From Muribaculaceae bacterium (GTDB lineage Bacteria; Bacteroidota; Bacteroidia; Bacteroidales; Muribaculaceae), in NCBI GenBank assembly GCA_017505535.1, contig JAFVPD010000031.1, forward strand, positions 62,001 to 126,000: a stretch of DNA of 64,000 bases. The letters are read 5' to 3'. How positions within the stretch are numbered: the first letter of the stretch is position 1; every line of letters begins with the position of its first letter. The notes below the pieces were generated by a model that saw only the letters and a list, made by a program, of their open reading frames with translations, ran no database searches and had not been told where the DNA came from. This document shows positions 3,988-56,665 of the stretch, piece after piece. A program made the position numbers and the translations under genes.

Positions 3988-5901
3988 ATGTTAAAAATAA
4001 AAAGATTATATACATTTATGCTACAGAGCTTTATTCCTCTGTTGCTCATGACATTCTTTATATGTCTTTTTATTGTGTTGATGCAATTCCTATGGAAATA
4101 CATTGACGACTTAGTAGGTAAAGGCCTTGAATTTAGCGTAATTGTTGAATTGTTTTTCTACGCAGCACTTACATTAGTTCCAATGGCACTACCATTGGCT
4201 GTATTGCTTGCGTCGCTCATGACTTTTGGGAACTTAGGAGAACGATTTGAGCTCACTGCAATGAAAGCGTCAGGAGTTTCCTTGCTCAAATCAATGCGCC
4301 CTATCATTGCTTTAATGATCGTCATCGCGATTGGTGCATTTTTCTTTCAGAACAATGTACTTCCGGTTGCTCAAACCAAGATGTGGACTCTACTATACTC
4401 CATGAGGCAAAAATCTCCGGAACTTGAAATACCCGAAGGTGTATTTTATGATCAAATTCCGGGATATAACCTATTTGTTCAGAAAAAAGATGCTGAAACA
4501 GGCCTTTTACACAATGTAATGATATATGACGTCTCGGCCGGTTTTGACAATTCTCGCATCATTCTTGCCGACACAGGAAAAATGAGTATGACCGCCGACA
4601 AGAAACATCTATTCCTTTCATTAAAACAAGGCGAACAATTTGAAAACCTCAAAGAGCAAGGGACTACTCGTGGCAATGTACCATACAGACGTGAATCATT
4701 CACGGAAAAAGAAATCATGATTGCATTTGATGCCAATTTCAACCGAATGGACGAAGATGGAATGCGCAATCAATATGTGGGAAAAAACATTTCTGAACTG
4801 CAAGCAACGATAGACTCAGTCAAATATAGAGTTGATAGCATCGGACTCTTATATGGGCAAGCACTCAAAGAAACTCCATTCCTTGGACTCCCCTACTATC
4901 GACGCGTTTACGAAAAAGGGGCAATAGTAAACAAGCCACAAAAGCCGGTAACACTCACAACGCCAATAAATCTTGATTCGTTGGTTATAGGAAAAAGCGC
5001 CGGGACCCACAAAGGTTGCCTCACTCAAGCTCTCAACGAAGCAAAACGTAGCCGACAGGACTATGAATTCAAAAGTTATACCATGGGAGATGACCGCAAA
5101 ACCATACGTCGCCATGGCATTGAACTTATGAAAAAATTCACTCTCTCATTTGCGTGCATCATATTCTTTTTCATTGGAGCGCCATTAGGCGCAATCATAC
5201 GCAAAGGAGGTCTTGGTATGCCCCTTGTTATATCGGTATTCCTTTTTATATTCTATTACATCATAGACAACACCGGCTACAAAATGGCACGAAATGGGTC
5301 GCTTGAAGTGTGGCAAGGAATGTGGTTGAGCTCAGCAGTTCTTCTGCCATTGGGTGTTTTCTTCACCTACAAGGCCGTAAACGACTCTGCCGTATTCAAC
5401 ATTGACGCCTACACAATATTCTTCCGCAAATTATTGGGCCGAAACGAAGTGAGAAACGTTCAAATGAAAGAAGTTATCATTGATGAGGTTGAAAATACCC
5501 AAGCACTGATGCTCCTCAATTCACTCAAAGAACATGCTACTCAGTTCTTAAATCAATATAAATCCCGCCAAAACTATTTGTCATATTGGCTAAACGGATT
5601 TGACCGTACAAAGCTACATAGCTTATCTAAAGAGGTCGAAACAGTTGTTGAATACCTATCAAATTCACGCGATAAAATGGTAATAAACCGATTGATGGAC
5701 CTTCCAATAATGCGTAGTCTGTGGCTATACAAGCCATCAAGCTACAAATGGATTGGCATCACATGTGTTATTTTATTCCCCATTGGCCTACCTATATATC
5801 TTTTAGGAATTTCCAGCCAAAAGCACTTACTGAATGAAATAAAATCGATTCTCAAAACATGCGACGACCTTGAGAAATCAATCAACAATAATAATCCCTA
5901 A
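3988..5901 (+). CDS. LptF/LptG-family permease (YjgP/YjgQ)
   Basis: Inner-membrane component of the ABC transporter that extracts lipopolysaccharide and passes it to the Lpt bridge. The start (MLKIKRLYTFMLQSFIPLLLMTFFI) is the typical amphipathic helix plus first transmembrane segment. Helices follow at about 45-80 and 100-125, then a periplasmic beta-jellyroll domain (about 130-380), then three more helices near 390-480. At 637 residues it is much longer than the roughly 360-residue proteobacterial proteins; the extra length is a C-terminal cytoplasmic helical part with one more hydrophobic pair near 590-615, a form seen in Bacteroidota. ribBA follows after 33 bases, so the two are probably co-transcribed. 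Confidence 0.92.
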   Translation: MLKIKRLYTFMLQSFIPLLLMTFFICLFIVLMQFLWKYIDDLVGKGLEFSVIVELFFYAALTLVPMALPLAVLLASLMTFGNLGERFELTAMKASGVSLLKSMRPIIALMIVIAIGAFFFQNNVLPVAQTKMWTLLYSMRQKSPELEIPEGVFYDQIPGYNLFVQKKDAETGLLHNVMIYDVSAGFDNSRIILADTGKMSMTADKKHLFLSLKQGEQFENLKEQGTTRGNVPYRRESFTEKEIMIAFDANFNRMDEDGMRNQYVGKNISELQATIDSVKYRVDSIGLLYGQALKETPFLGLPYYRRVYEKGAIVNKPQKPVTLTTPINLDSLVIGKSAGTHKGCLTQALNEAKRSRQDYEFKSYTMGDDRKTIRRHGIELMKKFTLSFACIIFFFIGAPLGAIIRKGGLGMPLVISVFLFIFYYIIDNTGYKMARNGSLEVWQGMWLSSAVLLPLGVFFTYKAVNDSAVFNIDAYTIFFRKLLGRNEVRNVQMKEVIIDEVENTQALMLLNSLKEHATQFLNQYKSRQNYLSYWLNGFDRTKLHSLSKEVETVVEYLSNSRDKMVINRLMDLPIMRSLWLYKPSSYKWIGITCVILFPIGLPIYLLGISSQKHLLNEIKSILKTCDDLEKSINNNNP

Positions 5902-51130: not shown

Positions 51131-54013
51131 TTACTCTACCTCCAAGAACCCCATTAGGAACGCATCGGGGAAGATGAATTTCTTTTCGCCGAGGGTGAAT
51201 TTGATGTGGATAAACTTTTCGTTCTTGTTGATTTTAACAACCATTCCTTTGCCGAATTTCTTGTGTATGACGTTACTATCAACTCCGATTGATTCTAATT
51301 TTGTTTCAAGATCTTGCACAGCTTGTTTCTCTTGCGAAACGGGCTCAACAGTTATGGCTATTGCCGGCTGTGGTTGAACGACAGGCTTATGTTGTGGCTG
51401 TTCTGCACGCTTATCCTCAGTTGTTTCGCTACTTCTCGAATATGCACTATAATCAACCTCACTCATTGAGGATTGTTGATTATAGAACAGTTTCTCATAT
51501 TGAGTTTTGCGGATTGTGGTGTCCCAGCCGCCGACCTCTTCGTTGGTATGTTTGTCAATGCCGGTATATGTTAGGCTCGCATCCTCGTAGCGTTTGAACT
51601 TGAAGATAGCATCATTCATCAGCGGTGCGTTGAATACGCCCAACGAGCAAAGCATATTGAAGTCCTCGACACTCAAGCCCGTAACCTTTTTGAATAGTCC
51701 CGGCTCCAACTGCGAGATAACATCTTTCAGGCATCGTTCACGATAGTCGGTCAAGTACATAAATACAGGTATTCGGGTAGCAAATTTTATCAGTTTCTCC
51801 TGAATCTGTTTGCGTTTGCTCTTCATCTCCTTTTCCTCAGCAGAGATTTCTTTTTTCTCTTTTGGTGTCGGGTCGGGGTTCTCTTTCTTTGCCTTCTTGA
51901 CAGCTTCTGATTTATTGATAATGGTAGTAAGGTCGCTGTTGAGGTTGCGGAAGCCCTCGATGTTCATCAAAGCCCGCATCGCTTCGGGGCTTGCAAGCAA
52001 GCGTTTCAGCGTGTCGTTATCTACATTCACAAGCAGAGCAGATTCCCAACGCTTTGCGAGCAGTGTTGCCGATGTTCCTGCAAGTGCAATGTCAAGAATG
52101 TCCTGTGCATCGACCTCTTTCATGCTGCTGCCGTCGTAAGCAAGTACGGGCAAGAACTTGATAAATTCGCCTACCTTCGCTTCGGGATTGCTTTCGTTTA
52201 TATCCAAGCGGCAACTGTAATCCGATATTTGTCGCAAGGCTCTGTCAAGCGCAAAGTCGAATACATAGCACTCATTCTTCATTATGGTTTTGCTTCCCTC
52301 TTCGTTCTTTACCTCCCAAGGACTCTGCACTCGGAACGCAGCCTGAAAATAGGTTTCAGGGCTTTTCAAATTACGGAGCATAAATATACCAGTCCAAGGT
52401 TTAACTGTTACACCCGTTGTCAACTTACCGCAAGTAAGTGTAATGGTCTTTGTTTCCAACGGATCGCCCATATTGGCTTGCACAGGGTGCAGAGCATCAA
52501 GACCGATACCTGCTGCTGTTCCGGCACAAACTACTACCTTGTAGTCGTGATAGAATTTGTTCTGTCTTTGTGCAAGCAGATTAGCCATTGCAAAGCACGA
52601 TGCTACATTAGGCAAGAACCATAATGTGTGCGAAAGCACATTGAGTAAACGTGTATCGCTGAATGGCATTGGCGGTCGCTTGTCATGTCCGAGTTTGAGG
52701 TCATCAACGCTTGCAGGTAGATAACCGCCACGAATAAGGTCGAGCCATTTCTGTACCTCATTCTCATATTTGAAACGGGCATTCTCGCCTTTGCCCTCTG
52801 CTGCAAAGAATAGGTTAAGGTCGAATTCATCAAATTCGCCTTGTTTGGCCACCTCTTGTATCTCATCGGGCATACGATAGGTAAGCATAACCATTCGTGG
52901 CAAGGCAAGATACGGATTACCGCTCCCTTTCCACTCTGCTTTTGCTCGTTGTTCATCACTATAAGTCCAGTTGAAAATCTGCTCCTCGATAAACTCCCCA
53001 TTGTTTATAGCTCTGAACGGTGTTCCCGACAAAAAGAGATAATATCGTGTAGAGATTGGCAACCACGATTCGTTAATGGCGTTGTTTGCCTCGTCTTTCT
53101 TGTACTTTTCGGCGTCAAAATCTACGGCACTTTCCTCGTCTTCTTTCTCAAATAGCTCCTTTGCACGCTCTTTCCAAGCACCGAAGTGATATTCATCGAA
53201 GATTACCAAATCCCAATTAGTAGCGTGTATAAACTCATTCTTGGTTTTAATGCCGCCACTCTCGTTTGTGCCCAGCAGGTCTTGGAACGAACCGAACACA
53301 ACTATGGGCTTTGATTTGTCCGCTCTGTGGAACTCTTGGTCGATATTCAGATTGTTGTTGCGTGCGTCCTTGTTGGAGATATATTGCCAACCCTCAAAAT
53401 CGATGTGTGAAACAAGGTCTTCACGCCAAGCCGATTCAACTGCGGGTTTGAAGGTAAGAATCAATATACGCGACAAGCCCATCTTCTTTGCCAACTGATA
53501 CGAAGCAAAGGTCTTTCCGAAACGCATTTTTGCGTTCCAAAGAAATTTGGGGATACGATTAGGCTCGTCTTTCAGTGCTTGCTCAAAATAAGTTTTTGTC
53601 TGCTCCACTGCACGGAACTGCTCGGGGCGCATGGTAAAGTTTTGCGTTCTATTCTCTTCGATTGCCACGCCTGTGCGGAGCGACAAGATTGCAGCCATGA
53701 TATCAGGCACCGAGCAACGGAACCATTCATCAGTCTTGTCAAGCGGGTTAAGGCGTTTACAACCTTTGCGTTCAAGCAATCGATGAACATCCTTGTCGGT
53801 AAAGCAAGAGCCGTCGTTGCTCATAGCCGACTCTACCAATACAATCTCATACTGCACTTTGCTTGTGTGCAGTTGCTCGTCTATGCGTTCTTTGGCTGTG
53901 CGGTCGGTGTAACCTAACTTTAGATAACCTTTGTGGGAATCTACCCCAATCAAACGATAGGCATATATCGTTGGAGTAACGGTAGGTCGTTGAGGAAAAT
54001 AGTTGTGTTCCAT
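51131..54013 (-). CDS. GIY-YIG / SF2 helicase fusion of a restriction-like cassette
   Basis: The 960-residue protein combines three parts. Residues 15-100 resemble the T5orf172/GIY-YIG nuclease fold (IYAYRLIG, YLKLGYTDRTAKERI, DKDVHRLLERKG, DEWFRCS); the usual glutamate of the E-x-x-LH step appears as aspartate 75 or nearby. Residues 126-600 form an SF2 helicase: MRPEQFRAVEQT, Walker A AKMRFGKT (161-168), DEYH (273-276), LSGTPF, and QAAFRVQSPW as motif VI. The last 45 residues (HKKFGKGMVVKI ... KFIFPDAF) look like the SH3/tudor-like tail of PcrA/UvrD. A charged linker with PKEKKEISAEEKE separates them. It probably translocates on DNA and cleaves unmodified DNA; this is inferred. Confidence 0.8.
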   Translation of the reverse strand: MEHNYFPQRPTVTPTIYAYRLIGVDSHKGYLKLGYTDRTAKERIDEQLHTSKVQYEIVLVESAMSNDGSCFTDKDVHRLLERKGCKRLNPLDKTDEWFRCSVPDIMAAILSLRTGVAIEENRTQNFTMRPEQFRAVEQTKTYFEQALKDEPNRIPKFLWNAKMRFGKTFASYQLAKKMGLSRILILTFKPAVESAWREDLVSHIDFEGWQYISNKDARNNNLNIDQEFHRADKSKPIVVFGSFQDLLGTNESGGIKTKNEFIHATNWDLVIFDEYHFGAWKERAKELFEKEDEESAVDFDAEKYKKDEANNAINESWLPISTRYYLFLSGTPFRAINNGEFIEEQIFNWTYSDEQRAKAEWKGSGNPYLALPRMVMLTYRMPDEIQEVAKQGEFDEFDLNLFFAAEGKGENARFKYENEVQKWLDLIRGGYLPASVDDLKLGHDKRPPMPFSDTRLLNVLSHTLWFLPNVASCFAMANLLAQRQNKFYHDYKVVVCAGTAAGIGLDALHPVQANMGDPLETKTITLTCGKLTTGVTVKPWTGIFMLRNLKSPETYFQAAFRVQSPWEVKNEEGSKTIMKNECYVFDFALDRALRQISDYSCRLDINESNPEAKVGEFIKFLPVLAYDGSSMKEVDAQDILDIALAGTSATLLAKRWESALLVNVDNDTLKRLLASPEAMRALMNIEGFRNLNSDLTTIINKSEAVKKAKKENPDPTPKEKKEISAEEKEMKSKRKQIQEKLIKFATRIPVFMYLTDYRERCLKDVISQLEPGLFKKVTGLSVEDFNMLCSLGVFNAPLMNDAIFKFKRYEDASLTYTGIDKHTNEEVGGWDTTIRKTQYEKLFYNQQSSMSEVDYSAYSRSSETTEDKRAEQPQHKPVVQPQPAIAITVEPVSQEKQAVQDLETKLESIGVDSNVIHKKFGKGMVVKINKNEKFIHIKFTLGEKKFIFPDAFLMGFLEVE

Positions 54014-54017
54014 AATA

Positions 54018-55541
54018 TTACTCCATTGGGCGTATCATTGATTCAATAAAAGATATCTCATCATCTGTTAAGCCATATTTAGCGTACAGTTTTTCATCAG
54101 TCCACTCTTCTGTAAAATCTTGAATAGGGACAAAGGAATAAACTCTTGCAGGTGCATCTTGGGTGTTCTTCTTCAATAATACCATAAATCGAAAAAATCG
54201 AGTCTTGATATATGAGAGCACATTTTCACTTCTCTTTTTATTGGCATAAGGTCCTATTACCATATAGGTTTCAGTACAACATGTATTCGGTTCACCCAAG
54301 AAAGGTTTGTTTAATATCTGATGTGGGAAATCTTCGCCTGCACCATACGCACGAGTTATATATATCTTATATTCATCTACCCAAGAAATATTTTGAGTTA
54401 TCTCGGCTCTATCTACATAACCCTCGGTTTTGTTTGCATACAGCTTTACAGCTCCAACAAATGGTTTTTCTTTTCCTTTTACAAAAGTTCTAAAGCCAAA
54501 AGGTTTTTGAGAACTAATCTGAGTATTCATAGTCGGTTCTTTGAATGCTTGAACTTTTCTTAATATTGAAATAGCATCATTATATCTAATAAATGTATCA
54601 CAGCCCTTCTCAAGCAAAGGTCTCCGCATTGTTGATACTTCATTATTTCTCATGGTCCTAATTTCGCAATCCCCCTTACGATCTCTATCCCACAGAAAAT
54701 AACATACACCTCCTTTAATTTCTACACCAGGGAAACATTCTGAAGAAATTGGGAAATCAACAATGGTGCGTATCCTTTCGTCATGTAGCATCTCATCTCT
54801 AAAATCATCAAGACCTCGACCTCCTGCAAACCAACGAGAAGGTACAATCATCGTTAAATAACGAGGAGTTAGTTTTTTTGCCTGTTGAATAAATCTATGA
54901 TACAAAGGTATAGCTCCACCTCTTTGTCTATCTTCCGTATCTCCTCCATCACTCATTTGATATGGTGGGTTGCCTATAATCACATCGAATTTCATATTGA
55001 ATACTTTCTTTACATCTAAATTATGGATAAACTGATAAGCGTGGGTTTCAAGTTCTGCCCCACGATCATATTCGCTCTGCGAAGCACCGCAATAGATACA
55101 TTTGCCATCTTTCCAAGTATGCTTGATGCGTTGGTAGATGATATTTCCTTGCGGTTTGTCTTCGGGAAACTGATATGCCGAAAACTCACTACTTGGGAAC
55201 TTGCTGCAATAGACACTTCGGCGAGAAAGCAGGCTTGTCAGTTCGGTAATGGCAATACCAAAGAGTTGCTTGGAAAAGATATGCTCTATACGCTTCTCAA
55301 GGTCGGGTATCTGCTGTTCAAGTCCTTTGATAAGTCGTTTGGCAATCTCACGCAGAAAAACGCCACTCTTGCAACAAGGGTCTAGAAAAGTGGTATCGGG
55401 GTTCTTGAACAACTCCTGTGGGAGCATATCAATAATCTTGTTTGCCAATTCAGGAGGAGTAAATACCTCATCATTGCTAAGATTGGCAATGCACGAAAGC
55501 ACGTCGGGATTATAGACGCTTTTGAACAAACTATTCTCCAT
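54018..55541 (-). CDS. Eco57I-like adenine-N6 DNA methyltransferase
   Basis: The 507-residue protein has the N6-adenine methyltransferase motifs in order: DEVFTPPELANKII (24-37), SAM motif I FLDPCCKSGVFL (52-63) and the catalytic NPPYQM (191-196). The rest (about 240-507) is likely a target-recognition domain. A C-x2-C pair lies at 148/151 (KCIYCG). The ATG at 55541 is chosen: it overlaps the upstream methylase gene by 11 bases, and the longer frame to 55703 runs entirely within that gene. The helicase gene follows after only 4 bases, implying co-expression. Confidence 0.9.
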   Translation of the reverse strand: MENSLFKSVYNPDVLSCIANLSNDEVFTPPELANKIIDMLPQELFKNPDTTFLDPCCKSGVFLREIAKRLIKGLEQQIPDLEKRIEHIFSKQLFGIAITELTSLLSRRSVYCSKFPSSEFSAYQFPEDKPQGNIIYQRIKHTWKDGKCIYCGASQSEYDRGAELETHAYQFIHNLDVKKVFNMKFDVIIGNPPYQMSDGGDTEDRQRGGAIPLYHRFIQQAKKLTPRYLTMIVPSRWFAGGRGLDDFRDEMLHDERIRTIVDFPISSECFPGVEIKGGVCYFLWDRDRKGDCEIRTMRNNEVSTMRRPLLEKGCDTFIRYNDAISILRKVQAFKEPTMNTQISSQKPFGFRTFVKGKEKPFVGAVKLYANKTEGYVDRAEITQNISWVDEYKIYITRAYGAGEDFPHQILNKPFLGEPNTCCTETYMVIGPYANKKRSENVLSYIKTRFFRFMVLLKKNTQDAPARVYSFVPIQDFTEEWTDEKLYAKYGLTDDEISFIESMIRPME

Positions 55542-56214
55542 AATCCTGTACCTTCTTATAATGTGTAATATATCTGCGGAGGAATATGCCGCCCTCCTCC
55601 TTTTGCTCTTCTGTAAGAGCAAAGAGATTACCTTCGCTATTATCGTTATAGAGAAGAAGGTCGGACAACGTATAGTCGGAACGCTGCATTTGAGAGCCAC
55701 CAATTAGCGTCCATTCGGAAAAGACAATGGGCGCAGAGGTGTCTTTGCCCTCAGCATCAACACACATCAATGTAAGTGCATTACCATTGATAATATTTCG
55801 GCTGATGATGAACTTGGCAGCTTCGCGTGTTTCATCCGATGCCTCGTTTTTACAATGGTCGGAATATTCCTCGTTCCAGATTTTGTAAAGACGTTCACGA
55901 CAAACAAATACATTGTCGTTCATTATATCCACACCGTAAAGGCTTCCAATAGCGACAATGGCTTGTTTTTCGTAGTCGCGTGGGCTTTTCTTGTATTTCC
56001 TGCGGAGTTCGGCAAGTTTGCGTTTGAGAATAACAGCCAAGAAATTGCCATCACCGCAAGCCGGTTCCAAGAAACGGGAGTCCGGCCGCAGACATTCATT
56101 CGCAACAAGGTCGCACATAGCGTTTACCTCACGCTCGGCAGTGAAGACCTCGCCTCGTTCGGCTACACGCTCTTTAGATTTTATTTGAGTGGTATCTGAT
56201 TTTAAAACAGACAT
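55531..56214 (-). CDS. Small methyltransferase-like subunit lacking NPPY
   Basis: The 227-residue protein opens like an N6-methyltransferase: AERGEVFTAEREVNAMCDLV (18-37) and SAM motif I FLEPACGDGNFL (48-59). No NPPY/DPPY catalytic motif follows; it ends with a polar region (NLFALTEEQKEEGGIFLRRY). It may be a SAM-binding partner, a regulator, or a remnant of a split enzyme. It precedes the Eco57I-like gene with an 11-base overlap (ATGGAGAATAG). The start codon at 56214 is adjacent to a hairpin that could hold it closed. Confidence 0.8.
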   Translation of the reverse strand: MSVLKSDTTQIKSKERVAERGEVFTAEREVNAMCDLVANECLRPDSRFLEPACGDGNFLAVILKRKLAELRRKYKKSPRDYEKQAIVAIGSLYGVDIMNDNVFVCRERLYKIWNEEYSDHCKNEASDETREAAKFIISRNIINGNALTLMCVDAEGKDTSAPIVFSEWTLIGGSQMQRSDYTLSDLLLYNDNSEGNLFALTEEQKEEGGIFLRRYITHYKKVQDYGE

Positions 56215-56242
56215 AGCCCTATATGTTTTAGCGGTTAGGGCT
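56215..56242 (-). promoter_or_regulatory. Hairpin adjoining the start codon of the methylase cassette
   Basis: AGCCCTA (56215-56221) pairs with TAGGGCT (56236-56242); the minus-strand stem ends directly before the ATG at 56214, so it can hinder initiation. Confidence 0.6.
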
Positions 56243-56283
56243 ACAAAATCCGCGGGTTAGTATCAAATGATTAGGTCAAGACA

Positions 56284-56323
56284 CAAAAAAAGCGTGAAGC
56301 CCTGCACTGTCGCTCGCTTCACG
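56284..56323 (-). terminator. Attenuator-like terminator in the cassette leader
   Basis: CGTGAAGC (minus strand, 56316-56323) pairs with GCTTCACG (56293-56300), followed by a run of seven T (56285-56291). It sits 70 bases before the first cassette gene, between promoter and coding region. Confidence 0.85.
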
Positions 56324-56486
56324 ATCTGAGGCCTTCGCATTGCCCTACCTGTCGAAACGAGCAACGCATAAGCCCCACGCCGATATGTATAACCACTATT
56401 CTATGCCTATGGTTGTCATTGGCGTAGAGATACACCAATGACAACAAGACATAGGAAGGGCTGTATATAACATACCCACGGGGCAT
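56319..56486 (-). CDS. 55-codon leader open frame
   Basis: ATG at 56486 (minus strand) opens 55 codons ending in TGA at 56319-56321. The product (MPRGYVIYSPSYVLLS..., ending RQVGQCEGLRS) has no recognisable domain. Its stop codon lies within the 5' arm of the terminator (56316-56323), so a ribosome finishing it would keep that arm unpaired. It may be a leader peptide, or an accidental frame inside a structured RNA. A shorter alternative frame starts 4 bases upstream. Confidence 0.35.
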   Translation of the reverse strand: MPRGYVIYSPSYVLLSLVYLYANDNHRHRIVVIHIGVGLMRCSFRQVGQCEGLRS

Positions 56487-56634
56487 TCATCGTTGCTTGG
56501 TTCTGAACTTGCAATTTGAAATTTTCCTACGATTTCAGAATGTCAAAACCAAAGCGTCAATAAACGCCTTTTTTATATGTCTTGTCCCACCCTCCCGTTT
56601 TCATTTTGATGAAAACAATCGGCGTAGGACATTG

Positions 56635-56665
56635 CAAAGTTAGTTAAAATGTTATTTGTTCCAAA
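56635..56665 (-). promoter_or_regulatory. Promoter of the methylase-helicase cassette
   Basis: On the minus strand TTTG (56662-56665), exactly 19 bases, then TAACTTTG (56635-56642): the best full match to the Bacteroidota promoter consensus in the window. Sequence upstream (56666-56790) holds no gene. Confidence 0.8.

Follow-up and report, generated by a model that had tools for sequence, protein, structure and literature searches.

A pseudoknotted leader RNA family ahead of Bacteroidales accessory genes, a putative two-stage riboregulator

Introduction

What might a long and deeply folded RNA be doing ahead of a cassette of defence-like genes? The question is raised by a locus in a 64,000-nucleotide stretch of a Muribaculaceae genome (contig JAFVPD010000031.1), called the window throughout, in which an earlier sequence-only reading had noted a promoter, a strongly structured leader and a terminator ahead of such a cassette, and had proposed that a structured regulatory RNA controls it. 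The analysis described here points to a family of cis-acting leaders of about 300 nt, absent from Rfam and spread across the Bacteroidales, which would act as a putative two-stage riboregulator, on termination and then on translation. Judged from sequence, we give this reading a probability of roughly 0.58.

The leader RNA of the window

Reading of both strands places the promoter, the RNA and the terminator on the minus strand, all pointing into the cassette at 56214-51131 (Table 1). The promoter TTTG-N19-TAACTTTG is present as claimed, and the terminator, a stem followed by seven T residues, does lie 70 nt ahead of the ATG of the first cassette gene. The strong structure is likewise borne out: over the region 56284-56628, the predicted fold of the minus strand reaches -151.2 kcal/mol vs -97.1 kcal/mol for shuffled sequences (z -9.2, 0/100), and the plus strand gives a weaker fold of -102.8 kcal/mol (z -5.8). 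The perfect stem with a four-base loop, announced as 14 bp, is real and reaches 15 bp counting G-U pairs (56445-56431 / 56426-56412, loop TCTC, minus strand); it falls where conservation across the family is lowest, outside the conserved core. A generic scan for sigma-70 promoters and terminators, the rules of which are unsuited to Bacteroidales promoters, missed both the promoter and the terminator of the window and was set aside. Downstream, the three cassette genes resemble a split version of the type IIG restriction enzyme-methyltransferase of PADLOC (PDLC03626).

Table 1. Features of the leader and of the cassette in the window, with the evidence for each
Feature	Position	Strand	Evidence or remark
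Promoter: -33 TTTG (56665-56662), 19-nt spacer, -7 TAACTTTG (56642-56635)	56635..56665	minus	sequence
Leader RNA, predicted start about 56631-56628, predicted 3' end within T7	56285..56631	minus	fold and homologues, from which both ends are predicted
P1, variable 5' stem	56582..56631	minus	fold; sequence varies among copies
P2 hairpin AAGGCG...CGCTTT	56551..56570	minus	94% paired over copies, covariation z 10
P3 GGTTTTGAC / GTTCAGAACC, enclosing P3b hairpin GAAAT/ATTTC and kissing loop CGTAGGAAA	56499..56550	minus	covariation, swap and slide tests
PK1 5' strand	56535..56543	minus	partner TCAGATCGT at 56329-56321
P4 peripheral domain, including the 15-bp TCTC-loop stem	56383..56476	minus	fold; only the base GTATGT/ACATAT conserved
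P5 GTTGCTCGTT / AAGCGAGCGAC	56309..56365	minus	97.7% paired, 134 copies
PK2: 3'-domain loop AATGCGAAG, kisses the P3b loop	56333..56341	minus	covariation, swap test
Closing stem GCGTGGGGC / GCTTCACGC, immediately before the T-run	56292..56380	minus	98% paired, swap z 10.4
Alternative terminator hairpin CGTGAAGC / GCTTCACG and T7	56285..56323	minus	3' strand common with closing stem; covariation z 6.8-7.7
Terminator stem CGTGAAGC/GCTTCACG	56323-56316 / 56300-56293	minus	followed by T7 at 56291-56285
Post-terminator hairpin GCGG/CCGC, loop AGCCCT (56242-56237)	56231..56253	minus	loop complementary to leader 3'-strand AGGGCT (56303-56298)
TAGGGCT touching the start codon	56215..56221	minus	can pair with the loop AGCCCT, masking the ATG
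First cassette gene, 227-aa methyltransferase-like protein	55531..56214	minus	MmeI_Mtase E 1.4e-5, slightly below the Pfam cut-off; PADLOC MTase_II
Eco57I-type N6 methyltransferase	54018..55703	minus	Eco57I E 5.8e-37; listed from TTG, true start probably MENSLF further in
MUG113 (GIY-YIG-like) and ResIII helicase	51131..54013	minus	PDLC03626 E 8.7e-34

Distribution of the family

The sequence-only reading suspected similar sequences elsewhere in the Bacteroidales and suggested a BLASTN comparison; the suspicion was correct, homologues being found across the order, and relatives turn up by blastn in 137 of the 198 genomes compared from the window's taxonomic family. With a covariance model (R1) built on the 3' domain, between 1 and 17 copies are detected in each of 38 out of 39 well-assembled genomes of that family, and four in the genome that contains the window. 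In GTDB, a pattern scan returned at least 120 stretches and, among the matches listed, nearly all are from Bacteroidales (Bacteroides, Phocaeicola, Parabacteroides, Prevotella/Segatella, Muribaculaceae, Paludibacteraceae, Odoribacter). Two listed records are labelled Firmicutes or Lachnospiraceae; the labels are taken as naming errors, as these records derive from metagenomes and as L112 looks identical in RNA and first gene to L021, which comes from a genome in the family of the window. The exact pattern occurs in 26 of 392 genomes of the order, from many families, vs no match for the reversed control pattern, and this count is a lower bound since the consensus of a single subfamily served as the pattern. 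A phylum-wide covariance search gave matches only in the same order, under strict filters that may miss copies elsewhere.

Mobile elements carry the family as well. Four viral contigs match it, and other subfamilies match Phocaeicola plasmids and two unannotated phage records; by blastn, the RNA of the window itself has no match in phage records and one short match in plasmids. Among cultured commensals, copies are carried by Phocaeicola dorei CL06T03C03 (plasmid pBdorCL06T03-4, locus L247, about 5001-5257), Bacteroides finegoldii and Segatella copri. L057 (IMG/VR) and L100, one of them from a viral contig, retain the conserved 5' portion of the 3' domain but have a different 3' end that lacks a terminator. 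In Prevotella ihumii (NZ_LT706987.1; L066:1254-1290), an abiF RNA of Rfam (RF03085, 47.8 bits) lies on the opposite strand a few hundred bases from a leader copy, placing two RNA-associated systems side by side.

No family of Rfam 15, at gathering or relaxed thresholds, matches the RNA of the window or that of 12 other loci drawn from several subfamilies, and matches to mir-33, ncr952 and MIR7533 were rejected as spurious. Spurious miRNA matches fall in a long array of degenerate repeats (GGTGGTGAGGT...) behind the RNA copy of L036 (G534:C53). Further, no published description of the leader family was found in a search of the literature outside preprints, supplements and most subscription journals.

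Covariation and the conserved core

A covariation test on homologous leaders had been proposed along with the original observation, and across 134 distinct aligned copies (effective number about 127) covariation is very strong, with every Watson-Crick type seen, in statistics that ignore phylogeny and are safeguarded by controls in which the 3' halves are swapped or the partner columns are slid. PK1, which joins the last part of P3's 5' strand to the bases that follow GCC in the 3' domain, covaries with z up to 40 and four Watson-Crick types, and its pairing is 95.0% in the true copies vs 61.2% after the 3'-half swap (z 31). PK2, formed between the P3b loop CTTCGCA and TGCGAAG in the loop GGC-AATGCGAAG-GCC, covaries with z 21-24 and is 97.9% paired vs 89.9% with swapped halves (z 13). 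Swapping clearly lowers pairing in P2, P3, P3b, the closing stem and the terminator hairpin too, and sliding the partner by 1-3 columns destroys it in PK1, PK2, P5 and the closing stem. As P5 is nearly invariant, its support comes from conservation and not from covariation. The PK3 pairing is clear in some copies and amounts to 67% over the 134-copy alignment.

Competing partners of the 3' strand and a hairpin beyond the terminator

The 3' strand just before the T-run has two conserved and mutually exclusive partners, both of which covary: it may complete the closing stem (98% paired, swap z about 10) or the terminator hairpin (87% paired, swap z 9.6). Both pairings are possible in 111 of 134 copies, and alignment column 319 covaries with its PK1 partner and with its terminator-hairpin partner. 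A terminator together with an exclusive alternative pairing is the arrangement of a transcription attenuator, seen here at the level of sequence with termination predicted, and, as the closing stem and the hairpin both end at the T-run, either could act as the putative terminator. T-runs of at least four residues are present in 97 of 132 copies; the other 35 have no clear T-run, and predicted termination is not universal in the family.

The structure continues further than had been noticed. About 40 nt past the terminator stands a short hairpin of variable stem, the loop of which is complementary to the 3' strand of the leader (for example GACTCCC/GGGAGTC, GATTCCC/GGGAATC and TTGCCCC/GGGGCAA). 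The mean complementarity of cognate loops is 4.17 nt vs 3.11 nt in a family-wide permutation (z 8.7, 0/1000), and by eye it is visible as well in the three divergent copies that the window's genome carries. The loop match precedes the ATG by a median of 24 nt (quartiles 20-31). Moreover, copies that lack a T-run keep the kissing loop, so that leader and hairpin appear to belong to a single mRNA element. The start-side repeat that can mask the ATG in the window is found before two unrelated cargo genes, a methyltransferase (window, L005) and a PLD-helicase (L002-L004), and is thus probably part of the leader module; it is seen only in the window's subfamily. Folded alone, the start region of the window has a z of -3.2, with the start codon partly paired.

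Genes downstream of the leader

The RNA and the next gene share a strand in 130 of 132 copies, vs 65 of 124 for the upstream gene, a random 65/59 split. The ATG of the next gene follows the RNA by a median of 71 nt. Ahead of the RNA, 99 of 121 copies have a promoter box TAnnTTTG, vs 2.8% of random 60-nt windows, and such a box stands between RNA and gene in only five of 132 spacers. A same-strand gene directly downstream and no separate promoter for it is the layout of a cis-acting leader. The coupling, the promoter and the covariation give good support to the earlier proposal of a structured regulatory RNA before the cassette, but the RNA is not confined to defence cassettes and precedes unrelated accessory genes.

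Among 105 first genes, no Pfam family has more than six members (LRR_5 6, LytTR 3, DUF4007 2, NusG 2, and many single families). PADLOC recognizes BrxP (BREX), SspB/DUF4007, helicases (HKD+Snf2, GajB-like, HerA) and methyltransferases, and the kinds seen overall include restriction-modification, BREX and DUF4007/SspB proteins, helicases, leucine-rich-repeat proteins, lipoproteins, LytTR and NusG. A crude screen marks 48% of the first genes as secreted or lipoprotein-like vs 29% of neighbouring genes, and the neighbour control set holds DNA polymerase I, GyrB and a class II tRNA synthetase, none of which is among the listed first-gene families. PADLOC families number 116 among first genes vs 63 in the neighbour controls, a count of families and not of genes, taken from lists that both hold defence genes. 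As the first genes are unrelated, a defence-specific role was rejected as a general rule, and the RNA is better described as a general cis-acting leader of accessory genes. Leaders in four different genomes (L023, L080, L097, L170) precede small, similar HTH-like proteins of 68-84 aa.

A proposed two-stage mechanism and its alternatives

In the mechanism that we favour, the conserved promoter box would start the transcript, the core would fold with PK1 and PK2, and the 3' strand would be taken by either the terminator hairpin or the core's closing stem. Most transcripts would stop at the T-run and some polymerases would read through, at a frequency decided by the state of the core, itself set by a ligand, a protein or a co-transcriptional event. 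In the read-through mRNA, the downstream loop would pair with the 3' strand of the leader and keep the start site open; in the window's subfamily it could alternatively pair with AGGGCU beside the AUG and close it. The leader would in this way gate accessory genes at transcription and again at translation, the gated genes here being a split type IIG restriction system. The argument for two stages draws on the covariation and swap tests and the exclusive, covarying partners of the 3' strand; on the complementarity of the downstream loop, its position before the ATG and its persistence without a T-run; on the strand of the next gene and the placement of promoter boxes before the RNA and rarely in the spacer; and on the T-run, the start-masking repeat with two cargo families and the joint movement of RNA and cargo. 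Points that weigh against it are the lack of a common pathway among the target genes, the copies without a clear T-run, the restriction of the masking repeat to one subfamily and the weak core pairing of the window copy.

Since the RNA has its own promoter and terminator and is present in several copies per genome, the terminated product might instead be a stable, independent small RNA acting in trans, with its 3' strand binding the hairpin loops of its own and paralogous mRNAs; paralogous families of small RNAs do exist in Bacteroides (FopS, PMC11697453). We regard this as rather unlikely. The near-total coupling to a same-strand next gene and the cognate-specific loops fit action in cis better, the pairing strand is buried in a stable stem, and copies without a T-run retain the loop. 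Moreover, the gene has no promoter box of its own, and its mRNA would still need read-through of the leader.

The mobility of the leader raises another alternative, in which the RNA-hairpin module marks or guides the insertion of new genes as part of a gene-exchange system and its function as a leader is secondary. A 5.7-kb unit of RNA, PLD-helicase and methyltransferase, 98% identical in G053 and G089, sits behind different upstream genes; the homology begins at the RNA promoter, and RNA and cargo move together. G125 and G149 have the upstream gene and the RNA in common, and the cargo switches right after the post-terminator hairpin. Behind ddl, L044 (G000:C4) and L038 (G089:C50) carry different RNA subfamilies and different cargo, which suggests that the ddl-adjacent site is a hot spot for accessory genes. 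The window RNA, too, is a mosaic: over the 5' domain and P4 it shares 95% identity with L002, which drops to 57% in the 3' loop, and in that loop it matches L117/L153 at 89%; gene conversion between copies may have produced the mosaic. All of these would suit a gene-exchange system, which we nevertheless hold to be distinctly improbable. The same data are explained by homologous recombination within a conserved leader; unsystematic inspection showed no shared recombinase and neither terminal repeats nor a target duplication; and the fixed distance from hairpin to ATG points to expression.

The mosaic copy of the window also bears on a caution raised beforehand, that leader variants with broken pairing would speak against the RNA. 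It is partly such a variant: PK1 forms 6 of 8 scored pairs (95% in the family) and PK2 4 of 7 pairs (98% family-wide), and the total of 10/15 places it among the seven lowest of 134 copies, in a family of strong covariation. The weakened core pairing may impair this copy. Homologues of the window's first gene accompany this RNA in the window, in G114, twice in G624 and in L117; two further homologues have a short, distant, low-score version of the RNA, and three show none, one of these lying too close to a contig end to judge. In L245 (G624:C12) the homologue is broken by six in-frame stops, and the leader upstream still scores 116.8 bits. Short and distant versions of the RNA (16.8 and 20.9 bits) stand before the methyltransferase homologues of L243 and L244, with similar pairing by eye, and possibly represent a minimal form of a superfamily.

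A passive insulator or transcript stabilizer, in which a strong terminator and a structured 5' end act without switching, would account for the terminator and the deep structure, but simple terminators need neither covarying pseudoknots nor a cognate downstream loop, and this explanation is very improbable. Chance intergenic structure or an unrecognized coding sequence is hardly credible and already refuted by the shuffles, by covariation with every Watson-Crick type and by homologues in many genera.

Implications

It is rare for large pseudoknotted RNAs to be present in nearly all genomes of an abundant family of gut bacteria, and this leader is without an Rfam entry. If it is a switch, it would form a shared layer of control over the defence and surface genes of gut Bacteroidales, the regulation of which is poorly understood, and its partner signal could be sought directly. 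A bolder and rather doubtful thought is that the RNA is a general-purpose switch, open to horizontal exchange, which responds to one common cellular signal and gates many unrelated accessory genes of Bacteroidales (restriction-modification, BREX, surface and regulatory genes), its kissing loop picking between the terminator strand and the start codon. As the leaders are multicopy, tied to genes and covarying, the idea should be quickly testable by compensatory mutations in a cultured strain.

Comparison with known RNAs

Among metabolite riboswitches and transcription attenuators, the closest are the cobalamin riboswitches, in which a kissing loop reaches to the expression platform. The leader resembles the cobalamin type in its pseudoknotted 5' leader, its competing terminator stem and a loop near the translation start that pairs back, and differs from riboswitches in its unrelated targets, in a loop hairpin that lies beyond the terminator and in the lack of an Rfam match. 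Riboswitches usually, if not absolutely, serve targets of one pathway, and no such pathway emerges from the 105 first genes. Ligand binding being only putative and the targets having no common pathway, the leader is not classed as a riboswitch, though it is attenuator- or riboswitch-like.

The IS110 bridge RNA, the msr-msd of retrons and the guide RNAs of IscB/TnpB are structured RNAs beside mobile genes with short complementarity to adjacent sequence. The leader is like the bridge RNA, the retron RNA and OMEGA RNA in each of these respects, and may differ from them in its genes: no reverse transcriptase, IS110 recombinase or IscB/TnpB is found among the 25 commonest first-gene families or the listed protein starts.

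Comparative genomics has yielded candidate structured RNAs of Bacteroidetes such as Bacteroidales-1, Bacteroides-1 and Bacteroid-trp (Weinberg 2010, PMC2864571), and those among them with an Rfam entry do not match the leader. A set of 3161 candidate RNAs of the human microbiome may include fragments of the leader family; the examples in its main text, on which the comparison is based, span 40-132 bp and come from other contexts (PMC8040213). The FopS small RNAs of Bacteroides measure 65-70 nt, carry a single terminator hairpin and target susC mRNAs in trans (PMC11697453), and the leader departs from their design of about 65-70 nt, a single-stranded 5' seed and a terminator hairpin. Like FopS and GibS (PMC11697453), it is a multicopy RNA family found in Bacteroidaceae and would base-pair near translation starts; unlike FopS, it is about 300 nt long, pseudoknotted and tied to the gene that follows it.
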